Below, piece by piece: positions 8,781 through 14,154 of a DNA stretch of 48,236 nucleotides. Source of the DNA: Verrucomicrobiota bacterium (lineage in GTDB: Bacteria; Verrucomicrobiota; Verrucomicrobiia; Limisphaerales; VHCN01); NCBI GenBank assembly GCA_016871675.1, contig VHCN01000021.1, positions 1-48,236 on the forward strand. Reading direction: 5' to 3'. Below the pieces are notes generated by a model that searched no databases, was not told the origin of the DNA, and worked only from the letters and a program-made list of their open reading frames with translations. A program made the translations under genes and the position numbers. Within the stretch, counting starts at the first letter, position 1. Each line of letters begins with the position of its first letter.

Positions 8781-8920
8781 CGTGGTGAATGGACCGGGTT
8801 GCTGCGACGGCACCGACCCGCGCCGTCGCGTGCGGCACCTTGGTAAAGCGAGGCGCGGTTTCCCGCAATTCCAAACACCGCGCGCCGCCTCGCGAGCCTC
8901 GCATTCTGGCGCCGCGCGCC

Positions 8921-8926
8921 TACGCT
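8921..8926 (+). promoter_or_regulatory. -10 box of the Fe-S protein gene (leaderless type)
   Basis: TACGCT at 8921-8926 is followed 6 bases later by the GTG start at 8933. No good -35 hexamer is seen. The same TACGCT box occurs in two promoters with good -35 elements (11394 and 24355). Confidence 0.4.
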
Positions 8927-8932
8927 TGGGCC

Positions 8933-9544
8933 GTGAGCGCTTTCGAGAATCCCGCACTCGCCGCCTTCGTCGCCCGGCTTGGCGGTGAACGCGTCGTCGC
9001 GCAGGTGCGCGTCCGGCGCGAGGCCACCGGGTTCGAGGTGCGTCACGCCGACGACCGGGACACGCCTGCGGAAGCCCTTGAACGGGTGTCCGCGTGGAAT
9101 GCCCGCGACCTCGCGCAGGCCGCGGTCGGCGGCGATTTCCGCCCGCTCAAGTCCGCGCCCACGCTGCGTCGCGGCTGGAGGATTCTTGTGCGCGACGCGG
9201 GCGAACTCGGCGTCGCGCTCGACCGGCTCTATCCGGGGGCGGTTGCGGACTGGTTTGCGTCCACGGCGGCGGACGTGCCGGTCACGAACTGGACAGAGTT
9301 CACCGCGCGGCAGAGCGGGATGTATCGCATCACGACCCTGCTGGGAGGGCCGTCACTCGCGGCGTTGGTGGCGGAGACTTGCGCCCCGGCCCGCTGTCTC
9401 AAGCGCCGGCTTTGGTGCGCTCCATCCGCGCCGGCCGATGGTGACGCGGGCAAGAGCCTGATTCCCTGCCTCGAACCCTGCGCGCTCATGCTCGAAGCCG
9501 CGCGGGCGCGGGTCCGCGTCGAGCAGGACAGTGCGCGCGGCTAG
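8933..9544 (+). CDS. DR2241-type 4Fe-4S cluster-binding domain protein
   Basis: A 203-residue cytoplasmic protein with a clustered set of cysteines at the C-terminus: C150, C155 and C162 within [15 protein letters not shown], and C179 and C183 within IPCLEPC. This spacing and the preceding [14 protein letters not shown] and YRITTLL segments resemble the stabilising and 4Fe-4S domains of Deinococcus DR2241, a protein that in other species is joined to a CbiX-like chelatase domain; that domain is absent here. Function unknown. The same frame is open upstream to 8789, but the GTG at 8933 is preferred because a TACGCT -10 box lies 6 bases before it. An ACT-domain gene and a NifS-like gene follow on the same strand, 43 and 15 bases apart, suggesting a transcription unit. 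Confidence 0.6.
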
Positions 9545-9587: not shown

Positions 9588-10046
9588 ATGGCGACCGAGA
9601 CCCTCCGGCTGCGGCCGAGCGAGCCGGTGGTGCAGTTTTCGGTGTTCACCGCGAACAAACTGGGCCGGCTCCACGACCTCATCCAGCACTTCGCCGAGCA
9701 TCACGTGCACGTCCTCGCCATCACGGTGCTGGACACCACCGACAGCGCCATCCTCCGGCTCATCGTGGACGATCCCGCCAAGGCGCGGTCCGTCCTGCGC
9801 GAGGACGGCTTTGCGTTCACCGAGAGCGAGGTGCTGGTGTTCGAGATGGACGCGGTGACGCAATTGCACGAGGCGCTGCAGGTCCTGCTCGAGACCGAGA
9901 TCAACATCAACTATCTCTATGCGTTCCTCGCGCGGCCCGGCGGCAAGACCACGCTGGCGTTGAGCCTCGAGGATCGCGAGCTCGCCGAGTCCGCGCTCGC
10001 GCGCCACCAGTTCCGCGTGCTGCATCAGGGCGAAATCTCCCGCTAA
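9588..10046 (+). CDS. Tandem ACT-domain protein
   Basis: A 152-residue protein built of two ACT-like folds. The first covers about residues 12-75 (VQFSVFTANKLGRLHDLIQH, then VHVLAITVLDTTDSAILRLI) and the second about 80-150, including LVFEMDAV and INYLYAFLARPGGKTTLA. ACT domains bind amino acids or similar small ligands to regulate partner proteins; stand-alone tandem ACT proteins of this size are common in PVC bacteria and anaerobes, with no assigned ligand. The ATG at 9588 is used because it directly precedes the conserved start of the first domain. The NifS-like gene begins 15 bases downstream. Confidence 0.8.
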   Translation: MATETLRLRPSEPVVQFSVFTANKLGRLHDLIQHFAEHHVHVLAITVLDTTDSAILRLIVDDPAKARSVLREDGFAFTESEVLVFEMDAVTQLHEALQVLLETEININYLYAFLARPGGKTTLALSLEDRELAESALARHQFRVLHQGEISR

Positions 10047-10061: not shown

Positions 10062-11276
10062 ATGAGCGAGCCGACCTCCCCGCCGCCGACCGTGGGGCCG
10101 CGCGTGGTGCTGGATCACCAGTCCGCGACGCCGTTGCTGCCCGAGGTGCGCGCGGCCATGGAGCCGTTCCTCGGCGCGGACTTCGGCAATCCTTCCTCAC
10201 TCCACCGGCTTGGCCTCTGGGCGCGCGACGCGCTCGACACCGCGCGCGAGCAGGTCGCCGCGTTCGTCAACGCCCGTTCGCCGGGCGACGTTCTCTTCAC
10301 GAGCGACGGCACGGAGTCGGCGAACCTCGCCGTGAAAGGCGTTGCGTGGGCGGTCCGCCGGCGCGCAGGGCATTTGGTGGTTTCCGCGACCGAGCATCCG
10401 GCCGTGATCCAGTCGGTCGCGTTCCTCGAATCCCACGGGTTCACCGCGACACGCGTCGGGACGGATGCCGAGGGGATCGTCGACCCGGCCGCGGTCGGCG
10501 CCGCGATCACGCGGGAAACTGTGCTCGTGGCGTTGCACCACGCGAACCACGACACGGGAGCGATCCAACCGTGCGCCGAGGTCGGCCGCCTCGCGGCAAA
10601 GGCGGGCGCGCCGTTCTTCGTGGATGCCGAGTCGAGCGCGGGCTGGCTGCCGCTCGACGTGCAGGCGATGGGCGCGGGCTTGATGTCGTTTTCGCCGCAC
10701 CGCTTCGGCGGGCCGCGCGGCGTCGGCGTGCTCGTGCGCGATGCGCGGGTGAAACTCGCGAGCCTCATCCACGGGGGCGCGCAGGAGGGCGGTTTGCGCG
10801 CGGGGGTTGAAAATGTCGCGGCCATCGTCGGCGCGGGCGTGGCCTGCGAAATCGCCTCGAAACAACGCTCGAACCGGGCTGCGAACGCGGCGCGGTTGCA
10901 GGAGAAGTTGTGGCGCGGCGTGCAATCCGCGGTGGCCCGCGTGCAGCTCAACGGGCCCGCGCCCGGTCCGGGGCGGCTGCCCTCGAATCTCAACGTCAGC
11001 GTCGAGGCGACGGAGGGCGAGGGGCTCATGTTGCTGCTGGATTTCCAGGGCGTCGCGGTGTCGGGCGGGACGATTTGCGCAAGCAAGGAACTGCGGACAT
11101 CGCCTGTATTGCAGGCGATGGGCATCGGGCACGCCCGGGCGCAGGCGGCGGTGATCGTATCGTTCGGCCCGCCGAGCACCGAGGCGGACGTGGACAGGTT
11201 TCTCGAGGTCTTCCCCGGCGTGGTGGCGAAGCTGCGCGCGATGTCACCGCAGTGGGACGAGGGGCGGATGGGTTGA
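10062..11276 (+). CDS. NifS/IscS-family cysteine desulfurase homologue lacking the PLP lysine
   Basis: A 404-residue class V aminotransferase-fold protein that follows IscS/NifS along its whole length: LDHQSATPLLPEV, FGNPSSLH, FTSDGTESANLAVKG, H112 in TEHPAV, ALHHANHDTGAIQP, D188 in VDAESS, GGAQEGGLRAGVENV, and the active-site cysteine loop VSGGTICAS (C339). The lysine that forms the Schiff base with PLP, normally in an SxHKxxGPKG motif, is R214 here (SPHRFGGPRG), and the second lysine of the motif is also arginine. Sulfur transfer from cysteine is therefore doubtful; binding PLP non-covalently or a different role is possible. It is the last gene of the cluster with the Fe-S and ACT proteins, so a link to Fe-S or sulfur metabolism is an inference from context. 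Confidence 0.8.
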   Translation: MSEPTSPPPTVGPRVVLDHQSATPLLPEVRAAMEPFLGADFGNPSSLHRLGLWARDALDTAREQVAAFVNARSPGDVLFTSDGTESANLAVKGVAWAVRRRAGHLVVSATEHPAVIQSVAFLESHGFTATRVGTDAEGIVDPAAVGAAITRETVLVALHHANHDTGAIQPCAEVGRLAAKAGAPFFVDAESSAGWLPLDVQAMGAGLMSFSPHRFGGPRGVGVLVRDARVKLASLIHGGAQEGGLRAGVENVAAIVGAGVACEIASKQRSNRAANAARLQEKLWRGVQSAVARVQLNGPAPGPGRLPSNLNVSVEATEGEGLMLLLDFQGVAVSGGTICASKELRTSPVLQAMGIGHARAQAAVIVSFGPPSTEADVDRFLEVFPGVVAKLRAMSPQWDEGRMG

Positions 11277-12509: not shown

Positions 12510-12527
12510 AGCGCCGCGGGTGGCGCT
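12510..12527. terminator. Hairpin between convergent genes (possible terminator)
   Basis: A perfect 6-base stem, AGCGCC (12510-12515) with GGCGCT (12522-12527), lies between the stops of the LamG-like gene and tatC. It is nested within a 10-base inverted repeat, CTGCCGTGGC (12490-12499) and GCCACGGCAG (12543-12552). No T-tract, so bidirectional termination is only suggested by position. Confidence 0.4.
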
Positions 12528-14154
12528 ACGACTGAGCCTTCAGCCACGGCAGGCCGAATTGGATGAACAGCCAGACCAGTTCAGCCAGCAGGAGGATTCC
12601 GCCGACGACCATCACGGCGCGCTTGCGGGCCTTGCCGCGGTCTTTCTGCTCCATGAACCACGCGGCCCAGATCGTCAGCTCGTAGAGGAGTTGGAGTGGG
12701 AAAAAGATGATGATTTGTGTGACCACCTCGGGCGCGAGCATCGCGGCCAGGACGAAGTTCACCACGATCATGTAGCGCCGGAACGCGGCGAGCTTGCCGT
12801 AGTCGAGGACGCCGATCTTCACCAGCGCGAGCAGCACCACCGGCATCTCGAAGCCCAGCCCCATCGCGAGCAGGAATTTCACCACGAAGCCGAAGTAATC
12901 CTCCGCGCGCCAGAACAGGAACTCCGCGCCCATCCAGTTGGCGTAGCTCTCGGCGGCCTTGAGACCGAGCGGCAGCAGCAGGAAGTAGCACAGCGTGACG
13001 CCAATGATGAACAGCGCCACGCTCACCCAGAAGGCGCGCAGGAAATACTTCTTCTCCTTCACCCGCAGCGCGGGCATCACGAAGTCGATGATCACGAACA
13101 GCACGAACGGGCACGCGAGGAGGAACCCGCCGAAGAACGCGATCTTGAGCGAGGAGAAGAACGGCTCCATCGGCGACTGGAACACGATGGGCAGCGGCTT
13201 GAGCGGCGGAAGGTCCGCGCGCGGCTTGAGCGCGAGCACCTGGTTGGTGCCGACGGTCACCGTGATCAGTTCGAAGGCGACGTGCTTGTTGGTGCCGAGG
13301 GGCAGTCCGGCGGGTTCGCCACCCTTCAAACGGAATGACCAGAGGCGCTGGTCGCCCGCCATCACGTCCACCAGCTTGCCGGAGCTGGTGGGCAGGAACG
13401 CGAGTTCGAGCTGGGCCGCGCGGTCGAGCGGCCACGACATGAGCGCGACAATCTGCGGCACCGCCAGCAGGCACACGACCATCGCGACGGCGACGGACGT
13501 GACGCACTTGATGATGACCCACCGCATGTCCTCGAGGTGTTCGAGGAAGGACTTGACCGGTCCGCCGCCCTCCTCGGTCTCGGGACCGTGCAGCGGGTCG
13601 GGTTCGTCCGCGGGCGCGGGCGCGTCACTGCCACCGCTGCCGCCACCCGAACCACCGTCGTTGGCGTGATAATCGTGGTGGTATTCGTCGTGGTGATACT
13701 GGTCGTGGTAGGGGTCGTGATGCGGGTCGTGATGCGGGTCGTGATGCGGGTCGTGATGCGGGTCGTGATGCGGGTCGAGATGATGATAATCGGTGGTTGC
13801 GGTGTCGGCGGTTTGGGCGGTCGCGAGTTCCCCACCGTCGACGACGGCGGCGGCGGGTGAAGTATCTTGCGGCGAATCCAAGGGGGCCGCTGCCGAAGTT
13901 TCGGCGGGCGGGGTCGCGGTGGCTTCTGCGGTTGGCTGCGCCGCGCCGGGTTCCGCCGGGATGGGGGACAGAGGTTCCGCCGCAGGCATCGCGTCGGCGG
14001 GGGGCGACACGTCACCTGTTCGCGGAACCGCCGTTGGGGCGGTCGTTTCCGAGGGAAGAACCGGCGCGGGCGAGGACGATGCGTTGTCTAGGCCTCGCGC
14101 AGGTTGGATCGGATCCCGTTCAGTCGACTGAGGGTTCGCCTCGTCGTGAGCCAT
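12526..14154 (-). CDS. tatC: Sec-independent translocase TatC with a long histidine-rich N-terminus
   Basis: TatC is the twin-arginine receptor of the Tat export system. Residues about 210-542 hold the family core: FLEHLEDMRW before membrane span 1, QSPMEPFFSSLK before span 2, and LAPEVVTQIIIFFPLQLLYE before the last spans. At 542 residues it is about twice the normal 250-270. Two additions explain this: about 190 N-terminal residues rich in Pro/Ala/Thr with a run of about ten HHD-type units (encoded by 12-base tandem repeats at 13712-13771), and about 70-90 extra residues in the loop after span 1. The core motifs argue that it is functional. It starts 32 bases after tatA, and the twin-arginine Gfo/Idh protein at 22936-24312 is a local client candidate. 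Confidence 0.92.
   Translation of the reverse strand: MAHDEANPQSTERDPIQPARGLDNASSSPAPVLPSETTAPTAVPRTGDVSPPADAMPAAEPLSPIPAEPGAAQPTAEATATPPAETSAAAPLDSPQDTSPAAAVVDGGELATAQTADTATTDYHHLDPHHDPHHDPHHDPHHDPHHDPYHDQYHHDEYHHDYHANDGGSGGGSGGSDAPAPADEPDPLHGPETEEGGGPVKSFLEHLEDMRWVIIKCVTSVAVAMVVCLLAVPQIVALMSWPLDRAAQLELAFLPTSSGKLVDVMAGDQRLWSFRLKGGEPAGLPLGTNKHVAFELITVTVGTNQVLALKPRADLPPLKPLPIVFQSPMEPFFSSLKIAFFGGFLLACPFVLFVIIDFVMPALRVKEKKYFLRAFWVSVALFIIGVTLCYFLLLPLGLKAAESYANWMGAEFLFWRAEDYFGFVVKFLLAMGLGFEMPVVLLALVKIGVLDYGKLAAFRRYMIVVNFVLAAMLAPEVVTQIIIFFPLQLLYELTIWAAWFMEQKDRGKARKRAVMVVGGILLLAELVWLFIQFGLPWLKAQS
13712..13771. repeat. Five perfect 12-base tandem repeats inside tatC
   Basis: The unit GGGTCGTGATGC occurs five times without error, with a degenerate sixth copy (from 13772) and imperfect units on the left. 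On the coding strand each unit encodes a His-His-Asp-Pro tetrapeptide, so copy-number change would preserve the frame. Confidence 0.95.

Follow-up and report, generated by a model that had tools for sequence, protein, structure and literature searches.

A lysine-less IscS-like protein of Verrucomicrobiota with arginine at the PLP site: a putative scaffold-type partner in Fe-S cluster assembly

What is the function of an IscS/NifS-like protein in which the lysine that should form the Schiff base with PLP is replaced by arginine? This question is raised by a gene on contig VHCN01000021.1 of a Verrucomicrobiota bacterium (assembly GCA_016871675.1). The stretch of DNA that was analysed, positions 1 to 48,236 of this contig, is called the window below.

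An IscS fold with an altered cofactor site

The gene encodes a full-length protein of 404 amino acids, which has the class V aminotransferase fold (Table 1). The match to the NCBIfam NifS model has an E-value of 4e-105, yet its score of 352 bits lies below the cut-off of 531 bits; the NCBIfam IscS model gives 298 bits and does not reach the equivalog cut-off of 643 bits. The AF2 model of the protein has a pLDDT of 91 and aligns with the structures of NFS1, Archaeoglobus fulgidus IscS and Mycobacterium tuberculosis IscS at VIA-align Z scores of 53-54. The sole segment with a pLDDT below 50 sits in the loop that carries Cys339.

Table 1. Positions of the IscS-like protein, its diagnostic residues and the neighbouring genes in the window (residue equivalents refer to E. 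coli IscS).
Feature	Positions	Strand	Basis
Lysine-less IscS/NifS-like protein, 404 aa	10062..11276	+	Pfam Aminotran_5, E 2e-57
Arg214 (CGC), replacing the lysine that forms the Schiff base with PLP (K206)	10701..10703	+	alignments
Ser191, replacing the PLP-hydrogen-bonding Gln183	10632..10634	+	alignment
His163, replacing Asn155	10548..10550	+	alignment
Ile365, replacing Arg354 (presumed substrate-carboxylate arginine)	11154..11156	+	alignment
Cys339, mobile loop, equivalent of persulfide cysteine C328	11076..11078	+	alignment
C-terminal tail SPQWDEGRMG, part of the IscU-contacting helix (SPLWEMYKQG)	11241..11273	+	tail alignment
ACT_8 domain-pair protein, 15 bp upstream of the lysine-less IscS	9588..10046	+	Pfam ACT_8, E 2e-20
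DR2241-like protein with 4Fe-4S-binding domain (context only)	8789..9544	+	Pfam DR2241 and Fer4_23

The arginine at codon 214 had been pointed out in a preliminary description of this DNA, and the sequence bears it out: codon 214 reads CGC in SFSPHRFGGPRGVG, and in an ungapped alignment the residue facing Arg214 is the Schiff-base lysine in every canonical IscS/NifS compared. A shift in register, with the lysine of the GPKG motif as the PLP lysine, was rejected. The GPKG lysine has its own conserved column in canonical IscS and is itself replaced by Arg in the window protein (GPRG).

The same description held that nearly every desulfurase motif is kept, which is true only in part. Cys339 and His112 are present, and in E. 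coli IscS numbering the protein retains T76, H104, D180, S203, H205 and C328, but N155 is changed to His, Q183 to Ser, K206 to Arg, T243 to Val and R354 to Ile. The protein therefore shares with canonical IscS (E. coli) and NifS the fold, the loop cysteine, the catalytic histidine and the IscU-docking C-terminal tail, but lacks K206, Q183, N155 and R354 and falls under the NCBIfam equivalog cut-offs. In the E. coli complex, IscU touches IscS at residues 379-391 (PMC2854127).

The exchanges K206A, Q183E and H104Q each abolish the desulfurase activity of E. coli IscS (PMC9978102). Judged by its residues, a protein from which K206, Q183, N155 and R354 are all missing is very unlikely to act as a cysteine desulfurase. 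Some PLP stays in the K206A variant, which shows a 430 nm band (PMC9978102). Because this variant is inactive while holding PLP and absorbing at about 430 nm, the 420 nm band named in the preliminary description would not discriminate an active from an inactive protein.

Conservation in the Verrucomicrobiota clade

A search of 58 genomes of the window's order found the gene in 31 and not in 27, so that about half of them have an orthologue, at 42-60% identity. The clade examined has 33 members, and its named members, L057 and L058, put it in Verrucomicrobiota, Limisphaerales/Pedosphaeraceae. At the PLP-lysine site, 30 members have Arg and three (L006, L008 and L022) have Lys, whereas all 71 canonical proteins compared have K206. 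All six Arg codons (CGG, CGC, CGT, CGA, AGA and AGG) are used at this site, from which it follows that the arginine is most likely maintained by selection. Divergence is third-position-biased: it amounts to 0.51 at the third codon position, against 0.34 and 0.25 at the other two.

Three further catalytic residues are lost across the clade, which thus does not fit the earlier picture of one protein with one odd residue. Gln183 is found in none of the 33 members and in 71/71 canonical proteins. The Asn155 column, with Asn in 70/71 canonical proteins, contains His in 28 and Pro in three of the 33, while Arg354, also present in 70/71 canonical proteins, is replaced by Ile or Leu in 31 members and kept in one. 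Other positions are conserved: C328 and D180 in all 33 members, H104 in 32, and the phosphate-cup residues T76, S203, H205 and T243 in most. The co-loss of residues is descriptive and carries no p-value, with few independent events behind the correlation; an independent-pairs sign test had only four pairs, which puts significance out of reach.

The three members in which the PLP site has Lys, whether regained or never lost, are natural cases for the effect of the lysine alone. In these as well, N155, Q183 and R354 are replaced. A lysine without the other residues is therefore no marker of an active enzyme in this clade, and from their sequences the three look like conservative swaps in a pocket that was already non-catalytic.

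Outside the order the Arg form is rare. The DNA pattern for PHRFxGP was matched only in the window genome and in one genome of the same class among 388 genomes of the phylum, a sample in which the window's order is hardly represented and which informs on rarity outside it only. In the same class but outside the order, locus L151 (genome G379) has iscR, a lysine-less IscS with Arg and mrp in this order, with no iscU match in that stretch.

Operon context and the wider lysine-less family

The neighbours of the 33 orthologues include an iscR-type Rrf2 gene in 8, iscU in 11 and mrp/apbC in 14 cases, and iscU and/or mrp lies beside the orthologue in 18. A frequent gene order is iscR-iscU-(lysine-less IscS)-mrp. 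In these relatives, the lysine-less protein takes the place of IscS within an isc operon. The C-terminal motif of the clade, SPxWxxFxxG, corresponds to SPLWEMYKQG of E. coli IscS. Of the 31 order genomes that have the gene, 12 also encode a close type of IscU (68-100% identical to the query IscU), against none of the 27 that do not have it (Fisher p 1.8e-4, genomes taken as independent). About half of the genomes with the gene have no match to this dedicated IscU, and one of them, G017, has no IscU-like match at all.

In all 31 genomes with the gene, there is also a complete desulfurase in which K, Q, N, R, H, D and C are intact. Sulfur from cysteine can thus be mobilised elsewhere in the cell. 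A further gene arrangement was seen at L137:5461-6726 (G000 C1), where a rhodanese-domain protein with FYDHDG at the expected catalytic Cys loop is followed directly by an IscU-like protein; this type of IscU is common throughout the order, and its gene frequently lies a few kb away from sufU.

IscS proteins without the lysine are also encoded in Nitrospirota (Gln or Ser at the site), Chloroflexota (Gln or Leu), Myxococcota (Gln), Bacillota (Gln), an unplaced bacterium (Arg) and Bathyarchaeota (Asp). The majority of these genes from other phyla also adjoin iscU, and the loop cysteine is kept in all of the proteins. Q183 and R354 are gone in nearly every lysine-less sequence; the exceptions are L063, which keeps the Gln, and L148, a member of the window's own Verrucomicrobiota clade, which keeps the Arg.

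The preliminary description gave no precedent, and a published one is provided by IscS-2 of A. fulgidus. According to PMC7585200, A. fulgidus IscS has no desulfurase activity owing to a Lys to Asp change, and one of its cysteines serves as a ligand of the [2Fe-2S] cluster on IscU. Its motifs SSND, DATASVG and LLLTLG correspond to changes of K to D, Q to A and R to L, and structures are available (PDB 4eb5, 4eb7 and 4hvk; 4r5f is the D199K mutant). Similar to the window clade, it lacks the PLP lysine and the equivalents of Gln183 and Arg354, and it retains the loop Cys, His104 and Asp180. The two differ in that the archaeal protein carries Asp at the site, where the window protein has Arg, and keeps Asn155; its identity to the window protein is about 40% over the model. 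A. fulgidus IscS-2 works with IscU, and iscU adjoins 11 of the 33 clade genes but not the window gene; the operon with Mrp and IscR is seen in relatives from the window clade.

Two other systems may be likened to the clade by their published descriptions. In Methanosarcina acetivorans, IscS1 lacks the catalytic lysine and its gene lies in an iscSU cluster (PMC7585200). The minimal MisS-MisU system (MIS) of Garcia et al. resembles the clade operons in having an IscS-IscU pair and few accessory genes, with MisS treated as a type I cysteine desulfurase in PMC12442378, which cites that work. No bacterial lysine-less IscS was found in the literature covered, which did not extend to the primary papers on A. 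fulgidus or to Garcia et al.

In a quick tree without constraints, the Verrucomicrobiota clade (SH-aLRT 100) falls within a larger group (97) whose members mostly lack the lysine, and the A. fulgidus/Bathyarchaeota pair is close to this group but separate. A tree that holds all lysine-less sequences together has a better likelihood than the free tree and is not rejected, with a p-AU of 0.93, or 0.96 when the trait columns are removed, both values coming from a short tree search. This makes a single old origin of all lysine-less IscS proteins possible.

Proposed role and alternative explanations

The retention of the loop cysteine, the docking tail and the fold, together with the isc operon of the relatives, suggests that the protein assists IscU structurally and provides a Cys ligand or relays persulfide. 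On balance, it seems likely that the window protein is a lysine-less, catalytically dead IscS of a scaffold type, whose loop cysteine is supplied to cluster assembly, in relatives together with IscU. Such a protein would form no PLP internal aldimine and would not bind cysteine normally, and so would not desulfurate it. It would still have the fold of IscS, the cysteine-bearing mobile loop and the C-terminal helix that docks IscU. In relatives it would work with IscU, and probably also with the Mrp/ApbC carrier, from within the isc operon. The loop cysteine might act as a cluster ligand, as an acceptor for sulfur produced elsewhere, or as both, the source being either sulfide or persulfide from the canonical desulfurases of the same genome. 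The sulfide route is chemically reasonable, since H2S can feed IscU cluster assembly without a desulfurase in an anaerobic E. coli iscS deletion strain (PMC13015791). Arg214 would hold a positive charge in an emptied or weakly occupied cofactor pocket, perhaps paired with Asp188. Given that the phosphate cup is mostly retained in the clade, lysine-less IscS may still bind some PLP non-covalently.

The chances are about even that the lysine-less proteins represent an old and widespread family of dead IscS, found in Archaea and at least five bacterial phyla, that serves as the 'S' of isc operons, with a cysteine-ligand or persulfide-relay partner in place of the desulfurase and with a selected Arg in Verrucomicrobiota. 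If non-enzymatic IscS does operate in several phyla, the A. fulgidus case would be a general mode of Fe-S assembly rather than an archaeal oddity, and sulfur delivery would be uncoupled from the scaffold partner. Lysine-less IscS proteins are likely annotated as cysteine desulfurases, since it is the NifS/IscS models that they match best in databases, and the capacity for sulfur mobilisation may be over-counted in many genomes.

The situation in the window genome is different from that in the relatives. Neither iscU nor mrp was found next to the gene at the window locus; mrp is located elsewhere in the genome, and the IscU-like proteins are limited to a SufU and one of the rhodanese-linked type. 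Here the gene no longer belongs to an isc operon, and any partner that it may have in this genome is putative. This counts against the proposed role, as does the lack of the dedicated IscU in about half of the genomes with the gene. The ACT_8 gene and the lysine-less IscS gene are likely co-transcribed. One might therefore suppose that in this genome alone the protein has taken on a lineage-specific role with the ACT_8 protein or the DR2241-like Fe-S protein, as the short intergenic distance, the displaced iscU and mrp and the extra changes of the window copy (T243 to V and GPKG to GPRG) would allow. This is doubtful, given that the residue pattern is that of the operon-borne orthologues and that the linkage is found in one genome only. 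A conserved linkage was in fact rejected: no ACT_8 or DR2241 neighbour was seen at the other orthologue loci examined, in genomes that did not include the window's family. In the DR2241-like protein, only the stabilising and 4Fe-4S domains match, whereas the N-terminal portion of the DR2241-type profile has no match.

Less probable is that PLP, held non-covalently in the conserved phosphate cup, still supports catalysis, either slow or of another kind, with an amine or a persulfide as substrate and Arg214 serving in acid/base chemistry or anion binding. T76, S203, H205, H104 and D180 are mostly retained in the clade, E. coli K206A still keeps some PLP, and the site stays cationic (30 R, 3 K) without drift. 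However, the substrate-carboxylate Arg and the Gln and Asn that contact PLP are lost as well, T243 is missing in the window protein, and the Gln, Asp, Leu or Ser of the sister groups speaks against a common catalytic role of the site. The preliminary description had left a choice between an inactive paralogue with a regulatory or scaffold role and an altered reaction; the scaffold role fits the evidence better, and the altered reaction less well.

A regulatory pseudoenzyme that tunes sulfur flux, as a heterodimer with the canonical IscS paralogue or as a competitor for IscU, is a little more improbable still. Such a role would be compatible with the kept fold and docking tail and with the canonical paralogue in 31/31 genomes, but these paralogues are only about 36-38% identical to the window protein and not adjacent to its gene, and the operon slot is that of the primary IscS. 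Finally, a sequencing error or a decaying gene has a negligible chance, as the preliminary description had also argued, and was rejected on the clade-wide Arg encoded by six codons, the intact ORF, the identity to orthologues across the order and the pattern of divergence.

Apart from this locus, the window encodes a TatC protein (12526-14154, minus strand) with a long N-terminal extension that contains a His/Asp-rich tandem repeat (DPHHDPHHDPHH...YHHDYHAND). The TatC profile covers only about residues 322-498 of this protein, and the extension looks like a metal-binding or low-complexity region.
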